In this document: piece after piece, positions 3,048 through 30,170 of the stretch | Layout: each line of letters starts with the position of its first letter | How positions within the stretch are numbered: position 1 is the stretch's first letter | Source: an uncultured Bacilli bacterium | GTDB taxonomy: Bacteria > Bacillota_I > Bacilli_A > RF39 > UBA660 | Assembly: GCA_947623995.1 (NCBI GenBank) | Contig: CANQIN010000007.1 | Coordinates: forward strand, 1-34,097 | Direction of reading: 5' to 3' | Length of the DNA: 34,097 bases | Notes under the pieces: model-generated | Seen by the model: the letters and a program-made list of their open reading frames with translations, nothing else | Told to the model about the DNA's origin: nothing | The model's database searches: none | Position numbers and translations under genes: made by a program

Positions 3048-3401
3048 TTACTTTATAGCTTTTTTTAATTTAAGTACATCTTCTTTAGTAAGACCGGTTA
3101 CTCTACTAATAAGATTTATATCTTCTTTCATTTTTAACAGATTTATGGCAATATTTTTTATAGCTTTTTCTCTACCGCGTTCCATATCAATTTCTATTGC
3201 AAGCTTCTTTACTATTCTTTTTGGTAAACCGGTAACAGCCGAAATATATCTAGGACCATATTCTTCTTCATTTATCATTTCAGTAGCAATTTTTCTTTTA
3301 ACTAATTTGATATCAACTTCTCGATTATTTTTATTTTTCCATATTTTTTCATTAAACTCTTTTCTTGTTAGCCAAAGAGATGCATAAAATTTTAAATTCA
3401 T
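3048..3401 (-). CDS. Stand-alone Rpn C-terminal-domain protein with two tail repeats
   Basis: 117-aa protein without any nuclease motif. Residues 85-117 (AINLLKMKEDINLISRVTGL...) match the C-terminal 33 residues of the Rpn protein at 4070-4954 (AVNMLQANKPIDEITAFTGL...). A second, more diverged copy lies before it at about 38-72 (IATEMINEEEYGPRYISAVTGLPKRIV). The N-terminal 25 residues resemble the part of Rpn just after its internal start. ATG at 3401 is preceded by AAGGGAG and overlaps the upstream stop codon by one base (TAATG), implying translational coupling. In characterised Rpn loci the C-terminal domain is made separately as RpnS and neutralises the nuclease. An antitoxin-like role is therefore inferred here; gene debris is the alternative. 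Confidence 0.6.
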   Translation of the reverse strand: MNLKFYASLWLTRKEFNEKIWKNKNNREVDIKLVKRKIATEMINEEEYGPRYISAVTGLPKRIVKKLAIEIDMERGREKAIKNIAINLLKMKEDINLISRVTGLTKEDVLKLKKAIK

Positions 3402-3640
3402 TAATCTTCCAACTCCCTTAATTTTTTAACCTTTATGATTGTTTTTTCATTAAGTCCTGTAAAAGCTGTTATTCGTTCAATTGATTCATTAGCATTTAAC
3501 ATATTTAAAGCAACAATATTTTTAGCTTTTTCTTCACCAATTACTTGATTTGCCTTATCTTTCCATGTATCCCAGTCAAAAATCAAATGTATATTATTAT
3601 GATAAAAATAAACGTATAATTTTCTTCTTATTTTACCCAT
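3401..3640 (-). CDS. Stand-alone Rpn C-terminal-domain protein
   Basis: 79-aa protein. Residues about 22-75 (WDTWKDKANQVIGEEKAKN, then ALNMLNANESIERITAFTGLN) align with the tail of the full-length Rpn protein (WEARKNQAIGEER..., AVNMLQANKPIDEITAFTGLN). There is no PD-(D/E)XK core. The start codon has AAAGGAG at 10-nt spacing, overlapping the end of the preceding gene (5 bp gap), and the stop overlaps the start of the next gene. It is the middle member of three short paralogues in one operon. Intact frames and good ribosome sites in all three argue against simple decay. The RpnS-like antitoxin role is inference from the family. Confidence 0.6.
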   Translation of the reverse strand: MGKIRRKLYVYFYHNNIHLIFDWDTWKDKANQVIGEEKAKNIVALNMLNANESIERITAFTGLNEKTIIKVKKLRELED

Positions 3641-3645
3641 ATTAT

Positions 3646-3891
3646 TTAAACTCCTTTATTTGAAATTGATTTTTCTAATTCTTTTATATCATTTTCCATA
3701 AGCCCTGTAAAAGTTTTTATATTTTCTATTGGTTCATTAGCTTTTAGCATGTTAATAGCAAGATTCTTTAAACCACATTCTTTTCCAATATCTTGATTAG
3801 ATCTAGCATTCCATAAGTCTCTATCAAACAACCTTCTAGTCTGTCTATCAACAAAATAGTTTTCTAATTTTTCCATTATACTCATCAACAT
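3646..3891 (-). CDS. Stand-alone Rpn C-terminal-domain protein (closest copy of the internal RpnS reading frame)
   Basis: About 79-81 aa, depending on whether ATG at 3891 or 3885 is used. AGGAG at 3896-3900 gives 4- or 10-nt spacing; the second choice exactly matches the internal start of the full-length gene. MSIMEKLENYF...TRRLFDRDLWNARSNQDIG aligns without a break to MSITECLKEFL...TRKDFAREEWEARKNQAIG from residue 195 of the Rpn protein, and both end in the NML.AN.PI..I..FTGL tail. A longer TTG-initiated frame to 3912 is possible but would start inside the ribosome site. It has its own perfect promoter just upstream. It is probably an RpnS-type inhibitor paralogue. Confidence 0.65.
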   Translation of the reverse strand: MLMSIMEKLENYFVDRQTRRLFDRDLWNARSNQDIGKECGLKNLAINMLKANEPIENIKTFTGLMENDIKELEKSISNKGV

Positions 3892-3931
3892 ATCACTCCT
3901 CGTATTCAGCAAAAATATTATTTATGCCCAC

Positions 3932-3960
3932 ATTATATCTTTAATATTATATTTTGTCAA
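3932..3960 (-). promoter_or_regulatory. Perfect consensus sigma-A promoter for the three Rpn-tail genes
   Basis: -35 TTGACA (3955-3960), 17-nt spacer, -10 TATAAT (3932-3937). Predicted start near 3925, giving a leader of about 35-40 nt. It corresponds base for base in both hexamers and in spacing to a promoter inside the full-length rpn coding sequence (4469-4497), although the surrounding duplicate frame now contains stop codons. Confidence 0.75.
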
Positions 3961-3966
3961 GATTAT

Positions 3967-3997
3967 AAAAAAAACTTGGAGATAAAGTTTTCCAAGT
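3967..3997 (-). terminator. Intrinsic terminator after the full-length Rpn gene
   Basis: Minus-strand stem ACTTGGA / TCCAAGT (7 bp) with a 10-nt loop, followed by T8. It separates the Rpn nuclease unit from the promoter of the three stand-alone tail genes. Confidence 0.75.
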
Positions 3998-4069
3998 GCT
4001 ACCATCACCATTTATTCGTTCCGCCTACATATTTACCCAAATTTAATAATTTCATTTTTCATATCTAAT

Positions 4070-4372
4070 TTATTTTTTTATAGTTTTTTTTAATTCAAGT
4101 ACAGCTTCTTCATTAAGGCCAGTAAAAGCTGTTATTTCGTCAATTGGTTTATTAGCTTGTAGCATATTTACAGCAACAGTATTTAAACTTCGTTCTTCTC
4201 CACGTTCTTCGCCAATTTTTATGCCACGTTCTTCTCCACGTTCTTCGCCAATTTTTATGCCACGCTCTTCACCAATAGCCTGATTCTTTCTAGCTTCCCA
4301 TTCTTCTCTTGCAAAATCTTTTCTAGTTTCTTCATTATTTAAAAATTCCTTTAGACATTCAGTTATGCTCAT
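4070..4372 (-). CDS. Internal in-frame gene for the Rpn C-terminal domain (RpnS-like, 100 aa)
   Basis: Gene-within-gene prediction. Met195 of the full-length protein is preceded by AAAGGAG (4384-4390, 11-nt spacing). About 100 bp upstream, inside the coding sequence, lies a perfect TTGACA-N17-TATAAT promoter. The 100-aa product would contain the variable repeat and the helical tail but no nuclease residues. The adjacent stand-alone gene 3646-3891 begins at the homologous Met with the same kind of ribosome site, which supports the start. In the Rpn family such products (RpnS) bind and block the full-length toxin. I infer the same here; expression is not shown by sequence alone. Confidence 0.55.
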   Translation of the reverse strand: MSITECLKEFLNNEETRKDFAREEWEARKNQAIGEERGIKIGEERGEERGIKIGEERGEERSLNTVAVNMLQANKPIDEITAFTGLNEEAVLELKKTIKK

Positions 4373-4954
4373 TAAGACATCATCTCCTTTACTTATTTTT
4401 TTCATTTCTTTTATACTTTTGGCATTAAATAGTCTAAAATATTTATTTAATTTATCATTTACACCTACATTATAATCTTCTTCTTTTATTTTGTCAAGAT
4501 TTATAAAATAGATAATAAAATCATCATCTAATATACCAAATATTTTTCTATCAATATCTAATAGTCCATATTTACTAAATCCTATATTACCAGCCATTTT
4601 TCCACAAATATTAACTTGAATGACTCTTTTGGGAAGATATTCGCTACCCCTTTTAATCTGGGTTCCATATATTCTAAAAGCATAGCTTTTACTTTTATTA
4701 GCTTCTCGTTTTCCAAAAACTGAATAAGCTTCTAGATTAAGTATAACATCATTAAATTCAGCAACAATGTCACATCTTAACTTTTTATCGTTATATTCAG
4801 TTTCAGGTAAAACATCTTCACTTTTAAGTAGGATATCTTCATGTTTGTATTTAGTATTAAAAAAAGCATTAATAAAATCAAGAGCATATTCTTCTTTACT
4901 AAAAACATGATTAAAACATTTATCTTTAAATAATGGGTAAAATTTTCTAGACAT
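4070..4954 (-). CDS. Rpn family recombination-promoting nuclease / putative toxin (PD-(D/E)XK)
   Basis: 294-aa PDDEXK_2/Rpn protein. The N-terminal nuclease domain spans about residues 1-190. It opens with YPLFKDKCFNHVFSKEEYAL, has the first acidic position at Asp62 (LRCDIVAEF) and the second at Glu75 (ILNLEAYSVFGK), followed by YAFRIYGTQIKRG, typical of the family. The residue that is usually Gln or Lys after the Glu (E-x-Q/K) is Tyr77, so activity may be altered. The variable C-terminal part (195-294) contains a 12-residue repeat (GIKIGEERGEER) and a helical tail. Known Rpn proteins are DNases toxic to the host and active against phage, held in check by a separately made C-terminal fragment. 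ATG has AAGGAGA nearby, and the three genes downstream repeat its tail. Confidence 0.85.
   Translation of the reverse strand: MSRKFYPLFKDKCFNHVFSKEEYALDFINAFFNTKYKHEDILLKSEDVLPETEYNDKKLRCDIVAEFNDVILNLEAYSVFGKREANKSKSYAFRIYGTQIKRGSEYLPKRVIQVNICGKMAGNIGFSKYGLLDIDRKIFGILDDDFIIYFINLDKIKEEDYNVGVNDKLNKYFRLFNAKSIKEMKKISKGDDVLMSITECLKEFLNNEETRKDFAREEWEARKNQAIGEERGIKIGEERGEERGIKIGEERGEERSLNTVAVNMLQANKPIDEITAFTGLNEEAVLELKKTIKK
4191..4262 (-). repeat. Two perfect tandem 36-bp repeats in the Rpn variable region
   Basis: Unit 1 is 4191-4226 and unit 2 is 4227-4262, identical, followed by a partial diverged unit. Each encodes 12 residues (GIKIGEERGEER). Copy-number change keeps the frame and would lengthen or shorten the charged helix of both the full-length and the internal product. 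Confidence 0.85.
4469..4497 (-). promoter_or_regulatory. Perfect consensus promoter inside the Rpn coding sequence
   Basis: -35 TTGACA (4492-4497), 17-nt spacer, -10 TATAAT (4469-4474), overlapping the codons for LDKIKEEDYNV. It would start a transcript near 4462 that carries only the C-terminal reading frame from 4372. The same element is conserved upstream of the duplicated tail genes (3932-3960). Confidence 0.65.
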
Positions 4955-5013
4955 TTAAACAAATCTCCTTTCTGAAATCCATTAAATCAAAGAAAAAAAT
5001 AAATAGCAAAATA

Positions 5014-5118
5014 CCAATTTTGTAATTTAGATTAAAATTGGCTAACAAATTTTCAAAATTGGTCTAGCGAATTTTCAAAATTTGCAAAAAAAATAATACC
5101 AATTTTCAATTTTGGTAT
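5014..5118. repeat. Cluster of AT-rich palindromes upstream of the Rpn gene
   Basis: Four related inverted repeats built on CCAATTTT or CAAATTTT halves: CCAATTTT...AAAATTGG (5014-5041), CAAATTTTCAAAATTGG (5046-5062), GCGAATTTTCAAAATTTGC (5067-5085) and ATACCAA-N9-TTGGTAT (5096-5118). The two central ones start 21 bp apart, about two helical turns. They could be operators for an autoregulated Rpn unit or overlapping RNA hairpins. No clear rpn promoter is visible, so their role is undecided. Confidence 0.5.
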
Positions 5119-5200
5119 ATTTTTTGAATTTACGTAAATTTACACTATTTTACGCAAATATTTTACTATATATAATTTTAATAATATTAATTAACAAAAT

Positions 5201-26373: not shown

Positions 26374-27489
26374 CTAATTTTTTAAGGCATTTTCCAGCCA
26401 CTTTAAAGATTTATTTCTTTCTTGTTCTAATAATTTATTACATTCTTTAAAATTAATATTTTTATCAACAATTGATAAATCGTTCTCATCTTTAGCAACT
26501 CTATTTTCAAGATTACATAATTGTAAAATACTTTGTAATCTTGTGCTAAATTTTTCAGGATAAACAATAATAAAATTAATATTAAAATTTAATGAAAATG
26601 CAGTTGCGTGAAAAGAATCAGTTACAACATAACTAGCATTAGCAAACAATGATAAAAAATCTTCAACTTTAGGTGAACAATACATTTTTCCCTTTTTATA
26701 AAAATCATGTAATTGATAAGTTATATATTTAATAGGCAATCCAGTTTTCATAGATAAGTTATACGCATATTTGTCTATTTTCTGGTTTCTATTTAAATTA
26801 TAAACTAAAATGTATTTCTTAGTTTGAAATTTTTTACTTGCTATTTTTAACCAATCATTTTTATCAAATAGTAAAGTTGGGTCTAAAACTTGTGTGCCTT
26901 CTAAACCTATTTCTTCTAAAATTTTTAAGCCACTTTTTTCTCTTAAGGAAATATTAGAATAACGTTTTAAATAAGGTTTTAGCTGCCTAATTTCTTCTTT
27001 ATTTAAATTTGTTCTTCCAAAACTAGCAGAATAAGCAATTTTATTTTTATCATTAGGTGCAAAAGATAGATAAAAAGGACTATCAAATTTTCCATTCCAT
27101 TCAGAGTTCCAAACCTGGTCACTACCTGTACAATAAATGTCATATTTATCTACTAATTTAAAATCATTATCAGTTTTATAAGTTTTAGAACTAGTATATA
27201 AATATCTGCTAACAAATTTTTTAAAAGAAAAATATCGTTTAATATATGATGGAAAAATAATAATTCTTGCCATTGTTCTTAAAAGAAAACTATTTTCAAA
27301 TTTTGGAGATTTATTTTTAATTCCAAGTAACATTTGATAAATAGTTAATCTTTTAGGATAATAATCAATTAATTCCACATTATATCCCATTTTTTTTATT
27401 ACTTCTTGCAAAGCATATGCTTGCAAGACTGAACCATAATTTCTAACTCTATGTAATGTTATAATACCTACTTTTTCCATCAAACTCAT
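26374..27489 (-). CDS. Polysaccharide pyruvyl transferase family protein (second of two)
   Basis: 371 aa. The N-terminus GIITLHRVRNYGSVLQAYAL, DKYDIYCTGSDQVWNSEWNG near 105, IAYSASFGR near 140, TQVLDPTLLFDKNDWLKIA near 205 and YVVTDSFHATAFSLNFNINF near 290 follow the family plan, including the D-S-F-H-A-x-x-F-S motif. Predicted to transfer pyruvate from phosphoenolpyruvate to a sugar, although many GSDQVWN-type members of capsule loci remain uncharacterised. It is the first gene after the strong internal promoter at 27521-27549. ATG at 27489 is taken; ATG nine bases downstream is possible. About 25-nt leader. Confidence 0.85.
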   Translation of the reverse strand: MSLMEKVGIITLHRVRNYGSVLQAYALQEVIKKMGYNVELIDYYPKRLTIYQMLLGIKNKSPKFENSFLLRTMARIIIFPSYIKRYFSFKKFVSRYLYTSSKTYKTDNDFKLVDKYDIYCTGSDQVWNSEWNGKFDSPFYLSFAPNDKNKIAYSASFGRTNLNKEEIRQLKPYLKRYSNISLREKSGLKILEEIGLEGTQVLDPTLLFDKNDWLKIASKKFQTKKYILVYNLNRNQKIDKYAYNLSMKTGLPIKYITYQLHDFYKKGKMYCSPKVEDFLSLFANASYVVTDSFHATAFSLNFNINFIIVYPEKFSTRLQSILQLCNLENRVAKDENDLSIVDKNINFKECNKLLEQERNKSLKWLENALKN

Positions 27490-27520: not shown

Positions 27521-27549
27521 ATTATAATATATTACTCTATAAATGTCAA
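27521..27549 (-). promoter_or_regulatory. Perfect consensus sigma-A promoter of the downstream polysaccharide genes
   Basis: -35 TTGACA (27544-27549), 17-nt spacer, -10 TATAAT (27521-27526), about 30 nt before the pyruvyl transferase-family gene. The -35 hexamer is half of an inverted repeat TGTCAA-N10-TTGACA (27544-27565), a possible repressor site. Confidence 0.8.
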
Positions 27550-27593: not shown

Positions 27594-27623
27594 AAAAAAA
27601 ATTGATTACTTACTTTAATCAAT
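27594..27623 (-). terminator. Intrinsic terminator in mid-locus
   Basis: Minus-strand stem ATTGATTA / TAATCAAT (8 bp, 7-nt loop) followed by T8. It overlaps the stop codon of the first sugar transferase copy and divides the locus into a regulatory/initiation block and a repeat-unit assembly block. Confidence 0.7.
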
Positions 27624-28235
27624 ATTTATATTTTTTTTCATTTTTAGAATATCTAATTCATCTTTTATTGTTTCTTTACCAGCATTAACTCCATCTTTTA
27701 CAAATATAGCTTTAATAGTTAGAAAAAAAACTTTTAAATCTTGTTTAAATGAAAAATTTCTAACATATTCTAAATCATAATTAATTTTTTCTATTATAGT
27801 TAAATTATTTCTTCCTTTTACTTGAGCAAGACCTGTAATTCCTGGTAAAACATCACATCTATGTCTTTGTTCTTCATTCATATTCTCGTAATATTCAGGT
27901 ATCCATGGTCTCGGTCCAATAAAAGCCATTTCACCTTTTAATATATTAATTATTTGAGGTAATTCATCTAAACTTAACGATCTAATAAACTTTCCAACTT
28001 TAGTATATTTATCTTTTTCTTTAAAATTATGAACATCATTTTCGGCAACCATACTTCTAAACTTATACATTTTAAATATTTTACCATTTTTGCCAGTCCG
28101 ATCCTGTTTAAATATCACTGGTCCTTTACTATCTATTTTTATTGCAATAGCTATTATAATCATTGGTATTAAAAATAATATAAGTATAGATAAAGCCATT
28201 AGAAAATCAGTAATTCTTTTAATAATTCTATACAT
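27615..28235 (-). CDS. Undecaprenyl-phosphate sugar phosphotransferase, copy A
   Basis: 206-aa initiating transferase of the short (PssY/PglC/CpsE C-terminal) type. It moves a sugar phosphate from a UDP-sugar to undecaprenyl phosphate at the inner membrane face. A membrane or re-entrant helix lies at about 8-31, followed by DSKGPVIFKQDRTGKNGKIF, MYKFRSM, SLDELPQIINILKGEMAFIG-PRPW and GITGLAQVKGRN. It is almost identical to copy B at 29559-30170, differing at about eight positions before the C-terminal tail. The two share a 236-bp stretch with no difference (27808-28043 against 29743-29978). It ends in a terminator. Lipid-linked first sugar unknown (galactose, glucose or an amino sugar). Confidence 0.9.
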   Translation of the reverse strand: MYRIIKRITDFLMALSILILFLIPMIIIAIAIKIDSKGPVIFKQDRTGKNGKIFKMYKFRSMVAENDVHNFKEKDKYTKVGKFIRSLSLDELPQIINILKGEMAFIGPRPWIPEYYENMNEEQRHRCDVLPGITGLAQVKGRNNLTIIEKINYDLEYVRNFSFKQDLKVFFLTIKAIFVKDGVNAGKETIKDELDILKMKKNINID

Positions 28236-29558: not shown

Positions 29559-30170
29559 TTATATATCATTTTCTGTTTTTAAAATATCTAATTCATCTTT
29601 TATTGTTTCTTTACCAGCATTAACTCCATCTTTTACAAATATAGCTTTAATAGTTAAGAAAAAAACTTTTACATCTTGTTTAAATGAAAAATTTCTAACA
29701 TATTCTAAATCATAATTAATCTTTTCTATTATACTTAAATTGTTTCTTCCTTTTACTTGAGCAAGACCTGTAATTCCTGGTAAAACATCACATCTATGTC
29801 TTTGTTCTTCATTCATATTCTCGTAATATTCAGGTATCCATGGTCTCGGTCCAATAAAAGCCATTTCACCTTTTAATATATTAATTATTTGAGGTAATTC
29901 ATCTAAACTTAACGATCTAATAAACTTTCCAACTTTAGTATATTTATCTTTTTCTTTAAAATTATGAACATCATTTTCAGCAACCATACTTCTAAACTTA
30001 TACATTTTAAATATTTTGCCATTTTTTCCAGTTCTATCTTGTTTAAATATCACTGGCCCTTTACTATCTATTTTAATAGCTACTGCTATTAAAATCATCG
30101 GTATTAAAAATAATATAAGTATAGATAAAGCCATTAGGAAATCAATAATTCTTTTAAGAACTTTATACAT
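29559..30170 (-). CDS. Undecaprenyl-phosphate sugar phosphotransferase, copy B
   Basis: 203-aa near-duplicate of the enzyme at 27615-28235, with the same membrane helix (about 8-31) and the same motifs (DSKGPVIFKQDRTG, MYKFRSM, LDELPQIINILKGEMAFIG, GITGLAQVKGRN). Changes against copy A are conservative (for example Ile to Leu at 27, Ile to Val at 30, Thr to Ser near 147, Leu to Val near 169) apart from the last residues (KTENDI here). This is the copy in ancestral context: directly after the intact CpsB/YwqE phosphatase gene, 11 bp downstream. Both copies look functional. Confidence 0.9.
   Translation of the reverse strand: MYKVLKRIIDFLMALSILILFLIPMILIAVAIKIDSKGPVIFKQDRTGKNGKIFKMYKFRSMVAENDVHNFKEKDKYTKVGKFIRSLSLDELPQIINILKGEMAFIGPRPWIPEYYENMNEEQRHRCDVLPGITGLAQVKGRNNLSIIEKINYDLEYVRNFSFKQDVKVFFLTIKAIFVKDGVNAGKETIKDELDILKTENDI

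Follow-up and report, generated by a model that had tools for sequence, protein, structure and literature searches.

Organization of the rpn locus

The window, i.e. the whole 34,097-nucleotide stretch analysed here (contig CANQIN010000007.1, from an uncultured Bacilli bacterium), contains a full-length rpn gene followed by three short RpnS-like ORFs. All genes under discussion are on the minus strand (Table 1).

Table 1 Features of the rpn gene and of the RpnS-like operon downstream of it.
Feature	Position	Strand	Remarks
Full-length rpn gene (RpnL-like, 294 aa)	4070–4954	-	N-terminal PD-(D/E)XK nuclease-like region and C-terminal helical RpnS region
-35 box TTGACA	4492–4497	-	Codons L153 CTT, D154 GAC, K155 (cTT GAC Aaa)
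-10 box TATAAT	4469–4474	-	Codons Y161 TAT, N162 AAT
Predicted RpnS mRNA transcription start	4462	-	Inferred, approximate; 7 nt past the -10 box
Shine-Dalgarno AAGGAG, inside AAAGGAGATGAT	4384–4389	-	For internal start Met195
RpnS-like internal frame from Met195 (100 aa)	4070–4372	-	Start ATG at 4370–4372
Variable four-residue repeats (GEERGIKIGEERGEERG...) in the long helix	4190–4288	-	Repeat count varies among homologues
Probable intrinsic terminator ACTTGGA-N10-TCCAAGT-TTTTTTTT (eight T)	3966–3997	-	Separates rpn from the stand-alone RpnS operon
-35 box, stand-alone rpnS promoter	3955–3960	-	Pattern search, comparison
-10 box, stand-alone rpnS promoter	3932–3937	-	Pattern search, comparison
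Stand-alone RpnS-like ORF 1 (81 aa)	3646–3891	-	ATG 3889–3891 most likely start; Shine-Dalgarno AGGAGTGAT
RpnS-like ORF 2 (79 aa)	3401–3640	-	5 nt past ORF 1; without a promoter of its own
RpnS-like ORF 3 (117 aa)	3048–3401	-	C-terminal motif present twice; overlap with the ORF 2 stop

The window Rpn matches TIGR01784 over residues 11–287 with a score of 24.9 bits, below the curated cut-off of 52.1, and has no significant match in Pfam. Its membership therefore rests on its homologues. Thirteen of the 14 members of the homologue alignment (A1) match TIGR01784 (best E value, 5.5e-21) and ten match PF12784 (best, 1.3e-16); residues D11, D62, E75, and K87 are invariant. The protein is filed as a divergent relative of the TIGR01784/PF12784 family, not as a profile-defined member.

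The C-terminal profile matches the solved RpnA C-terminal domain (PDB 7th0) at residues 253–288 with an E value of 1.8e-4, a match that covers just part of the RpnS region, indicating that the C-terminal part is probably related to the solved RpnAS. In the structure model of the window Rpn (pLDDT 77.5), a long helix is predicted at residues 208–266. The first RpnS helix carries variable four-residue repeats, the number of which differs within the alignment.

Candidate promoter and internal start within rpn

The window contains three exact copies of TTGACA-N17-TATAAT, at 4469–4497, 3932–3960, and 27521–27549, each on the minus strand. The first site lies within the rpn ORF (4070–4954), as claimed in the first-pass annotation, and the second lies upstream of the RpnS-like ORF at 3646–3912. 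The third is intergenic, upstream of the ORF at 26374–27489, and serves as a comparison case of an ordinary promoter. Shuffled windows average 0.24 exact sites, and in 100 shuffles the count never reached three, indicating that the sites are real and unusual. In an AT-rich genome, an exact promoter match is by itself no proof of function.

The geometry of the predicted start matches that of the mapped internal start of E. coli rpnB. The Shine-Dalgarno sequence that had been proposed for Met195 is present as AAGGAG, and in this stretch residues 187, 188, 190, and 191 all rank in the top ten columns of the gene for synonymous constraint. In most homologues of the genus, the -10 box is 96 nt from the start codon, and an ATG, or a GTG, TTG, or ATG at or beside the Met195 position, is kept. 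The C-terminal region thus appears to have an internal start codon with its own ribosome-binding site.

Upstream of the full-length genes (24 genes, taking the first Met as the start codon), the best site has 3.46 mismatches, no better than the 3.17 obtained with shuffled sequence, whereas the internal site of the same genes has 0.79 mismatches on average. A near-perfect internal promoter with nothing comparable upstream suggests that RpnS mRNA would be far more abundant than RpnL mRNA. The region upstream of the window rpn gene (4985–5170) contains repeated AAATTTTCAAAATTGG-like units together with TTTACGTAAATTTAC..TTTACGCAAATATTTTAC, which are possible regulator sites for the full-length gene.

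Putative stand-alone rpnS operon downstream of rpn

The three RpnS-like ORFs downstream of rpn are almost contiguous and are therefore read as one operon. A probable intrinsic terminator separates them from rpn. It was not reported by a pattern scan with a loop limit of 8; the loop at 3966–3997 is 10.

The frame through the promoter of the operon translates as NLDKI-stop-Y-stop-RYNVG. The alignment to rpn is codon for codon, two spacer codons have become TAA, and both hexamers and the 17-nt spacing are intact, exactly as first described. The homology of the copy to rpn extends upstream only to about 10 nt before its -35 box, and the distance from the -10 box to the start codon is ~45 nt shorter than in the adjacent rpn gene. 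Over the 47 nt from the -35 box on, the copy differs from the adjacent gene at none of the 12 hexamer positions and at 13 of the 35 other positions (one-sided Fisher test, P = 0.010). The RpnS parts of the two are 46–49% identical, indicating that the copy is not recent and that the promoter has outlived substantial divergence.

The first-pass annotation called this copy a decayed duplicate. The nuclease part is indeed absent, but the ORF is not decayed: it is intact and conserved, and only the short stretch at the promoter is out of frame. A pseudogene of the adjacent rpn gene is ruled out by this ORF and its conservation in relatives. By its sequence, the copy is better read as a putative stand-alone RpnS gene heading a three-ORF operon.

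Conservation of the stand-alone module in relatives

The terminator–promoter–ORF architecture is conserved in relatives. Orthologues of ORF 1 are 95% (G024:C80) and 90% (G033:C63) identical to it, and neither the 32-nt terminator nor the hexamers have changed in either. Compared with G033, the terminator and both hexamers have no changes, the spacer has 2 changes in 17 nt, the preceding 3' UTR 23 in 99, and the ORF 13 in 246. A second copy on G024:C80 has the same terminator directly before an intact promoter, and the same terminator–promoter–RpnS order is found in a genome from another genus of the family (G132). The copy on G025:C11 retains the terminator but has lost the -35 box and has a broken ORF; this natural counter-example fits the model.

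A promoter that survives solely through recent duplication, in the absence of selection, would also account for the intact hexamers of the copy. The hexamers comprise just 12 positions, their difference from the other positions in the comparison with the adjacent gene reaches P = 0.010, and G024 differs little from the window here. However, the level of identity between the RpnS parts and the 37% difference at non-hexamer positions are hard to reconcile with a recent event, and the G033 orthologue has accumulated changes in the 3' UTR and the spacer while its hexamers and terminator remain untouched. We therefore consider an explanation by recent duplication unlikely, and favour selection on the promoter of the stand-alone gene.

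Among stand-alone RpnS genes, a promoter within two mismatches precedes 6 of the 9 behind a terminator and 2 of the 24 others (P 0.002), in a small tally made by hand and defined post hoc. Many of these 24 genes without a terminator overlap or nearly touch the preceding gene, and some of the genes that do follow a terminator have no recognisable promoter. Fragmented assemblies, in which many rpn copies end at contig edges, limit the number of complete stand-alone loci that could be counted. Genome G000 (1.47 Mb) has well over ten rpn genes or fragments, on contigs C7, C45, C22, C118, C30, C108, C93, C84, C31, C32, C46, and C12. Several are at contig ends, and rpn repeats therefore seem to break the assembly.

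The isolate names of the close relatives, which are uncultured Bacilli MAGs, begin with 'Lapin', so the samples are probably from rabbits. A contig labelled Acetatifactor (L176; CANQUQ010000045.1) carries an rpn gene 85% identical to that of the window. It is probably mis-binned or recently transferred, because its sample name (Lapin-032) is shared with Bacilli bins 38 and 41.

Synonymous codon choice at the embedded promoter

For codon-level comparison, rpn loci were gathered from 37 genomes of the genus and 193 genomes of the family, as well as from class-level relatives. In 65 ORFs of the genus, Leu153 is encoded by CTT in 56 of 56 cases, compared with 15% of Leu elsewhere in those genes, and Asp154 by GAC in 60 of 62, compared with about 14% of Asp elsewhere. 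The preference persists among 28 rpn genes of the genus that are <60% identical (CTT, 23 of 23; GAC, 23 of 25) and after clustering at 45% protein identity (CTT, 16 of 16; GAC, 16 of 18). Shared ancestry is an unlikely cause of this preference, because synonymous sites are otherwise free at 45% identity. At the -10 box, Asn162 is AAT in 22 of 22 of the genes <60% identical, compared with 80% elsewhere, and the TAT codon of Y161 is not enriched. Most of the codon evidence comes from the -35 box, because TAT AAT is near the default in such AT-rich genes.

In a scan of synonymous constraint over the 294 columns of the same 28 genes, the highest-ranking column is D154 (z 38.7), followed by L153 (z 22.7). 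Of the top ten columns, nine are at residues 151–191, which correspond to the promoter, the leader, and the Shine-Dalgarno sequence. Synonymous recoding of the 28 genes yields an expected 0.33 exact promoters and 3.8 promoters with at most one mismatch, compared with 11 and 23 observed; the maxima in 2000 recoding trials are 3 and 10. At other sense positions, no promoter with at most one mismatch is present in 25.3 kb of rpn genes of the genus. The first-pass annotation had staked its reading on the hexamers being conserved in related rpn genes, and the codon, column, and recoding tests all find them conserved far beyond codon constraint. Selection that keeps the embedded promoter, as seen in synonymous codon choice, is strongly supported by these comparisons. 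At the level of sequence, there is good support for a functional promoter serving the C-terminal product. Residue G164 of the window Rpn (about 4463–4465), just downstream of the -10 box, is GGT in 16 of 17 Gly cases, possibly reflecting a discriminator or start-site preference.

The constraint might be real and yet serve another DNA or RNA signal, such as a regulator site, a recombination site, or an mRNA element. The extra constraint at G164 is compatible with such a signal. However, the constrained positions are those of a consensus -35/-10 pair with 17-nt spacing, at a near-fixed distance from a constrained Shine-Dalgarno sequence and start codon, and the comparable site of E. coli rpnB matches a mapped start; another signal is thus quite improbable.

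In the predicted model, L153–D154 directly follow the last core strand (residues 146–152) and Y161–N162 are in the next loop, ahead of the helical RpnS part. Structure may therefore account for some of the amino-acid conservation at L-D-K-x5-Y-N, but not for the codon choice. It is scarcely credible that the hexamers are a by-product of this conserved motif in AT-rich codons, devoid of promoter function: although L153, D154, Y161, and N162 are among the most conserved residues and sit where a predicted core strand ends, although TAT and AAT are the default codons, and although class-level relatives lacking the promoter still often show L-D-K there, amino-acid conservation does not account for CTT and GAC in place of the usual TTA and GAT, recoding does not yield the observed number of exact sites, and the hexamers have been retained even where the reading frame has not. 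The codon, column, and recoding tests rule out a protein motif plus AT bias as their sole source.

Occurrence of the promoter outside the genus

Among genes of the family, a promoter with at most one mismatch is present in 10 of 43, compared with 2.5 expected, and the -35 signal is weaker outside the genus. At the homologous position, the promoter is absent from class-level relatives, and it was not found at the site in the plasmid-borne enterobacterial Rpn genes examined. The embedded promoter is therefore no universal feature of Rpn genes. In Enterobacterales, a promoter is seen at this site in chromosomal rpnA, rpnB, and rpnE, and is not seen in rpnC or the plasmid genes compared.

In E. 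coli K-12 rpnA, rpnB, and rpnE, the site is ATGACA-N17-TTTAAT at codon 205. An internal start of rpnB in E. coli O157:H7 EDL933 has been mapped by Cappable-seq 650 bp past the start codon and confirmed by RT-qPCR (PMC10469882). The -10 box of K-12 rpnB ends at nt 642, 8 nt before this published start, which lends independent support to reading such pairs as promoters. Like the window gene, rpnB thus has a -35/-10 pair embedded in the gene. The distance from the end of the -10 box to the internal start codon is about 87 nt in rpnB, compared with 96 nt in the window, and the hexamers are ATGACA and TTTAAT rather than the exact consensus. The sites of the two phyla may be homologous or may have arisen in parallel.

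Relation to known Rpn systems and proposed mechanism

The rpn genes of E. coli encode a toxic RpnL and, from an internal start, an antitoxin RpnS (Zhong et al. 2023, PMC10327210). An internal transcription start is present in every E. coli rpn gene, and separate rpnS genes lie downstream of rpnE and rpnC (PMC10327210). The window system resembles RpnA–E and RpnP2 in its nuclease-like full-length protein, the internal start for the C-terminal part, the four-residue helix repeats, the internal transcription start (here a candidate promoter for a short transcript), and the RpnS copies downstream. It differs in belonging to another phylum and in its weak sequence similarity. In contrast to E. coli, the putative promoter at L-D-K-x5-Y-N is near-perfect consensus in this lineage and is borne out by codon bias across the genus.

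The stand-alone gene resembles rpnES (ypaA) and rpnCS, which likewise are stand-alone RpnS genes downstream of a full-length rpn gene (rpnE and rpnC, respectively; PMC10327210). Unlike them, the window has an operon of three RpnS-like ORFs that is preceded by a probable terminator and still carries the ancestral internal promoter, and its stand-alone RpnS has diverged from the adjacent gene. The gene-within-gene principle, the internal promoter, and separate rpnS genes are already known from E. coli (PMC10327210). To this the present analysis adds the codon-level proof from a distant lineage, the insulated promoter–RpnS module, and the three-ORF antitoxin-like operon.

It is highly probable, on the comparisons above and by analogy with E. 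coli, that 4070–4954 is an Rpn toxin–antitoxin gene-within-gene with a duplicable promoter–RpnS–terminator unit downstream. The full-length product would be a nuclease-like toxin, RpnL. A sigma-A-type promoter in codons 153–162, together with the Shine-Dalgarno sequence and Met195, would give a separate C-terminal RpnS, which is probably much more abundant than the toxin and would pair with it and restrain it. Promoter, leader, RpnS frame, and terminator would form a duplicable unit in these Bacilli. In the downstream unit (3048–3997), the terminator would stop transcription from rpn and the retained promoter would drive the operon of three RpnS-like ORFs. Transcription from the sites, the excess of RpnS, and the antitoxin function are inferred by analogy with E. 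coli Rpn.

More tentatively, the module may repeatedly copy itself out of rpn genes, and insulated multi-antitoxin operons may neutralise several toxins of one genome. In this speculative extension, the embedded promoter would constrain the toxin sequence and keep the ratio of antitoxin to toxin high, because no strong promoter serves the full-length gene itself.

It is still debated whether transcription starts inside genes have a function or are noise. Here, synonymous codon choice alone identifies the nucleotides of an embedded promoter as those under the strongest constraint in a gene, in a lineage far from E. coli, and the codon test is a general, data-only route to hidden antitoxin promoters. 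If the proposed mechanism is true, synonymous changes at two codons would remove the antitoxin transcript and leave the toxin protein unaltered.

Elsewhere in the window, two near-identical sugar-transferase-like ORFs of about 200 aa (27615–28235 and 29559–30170, minus strand) lie on either side of a polymerase-like membrane ORF. They appear to belong to a capsule or exopolysaccharide cluster and are probably the product of a recent duplication.
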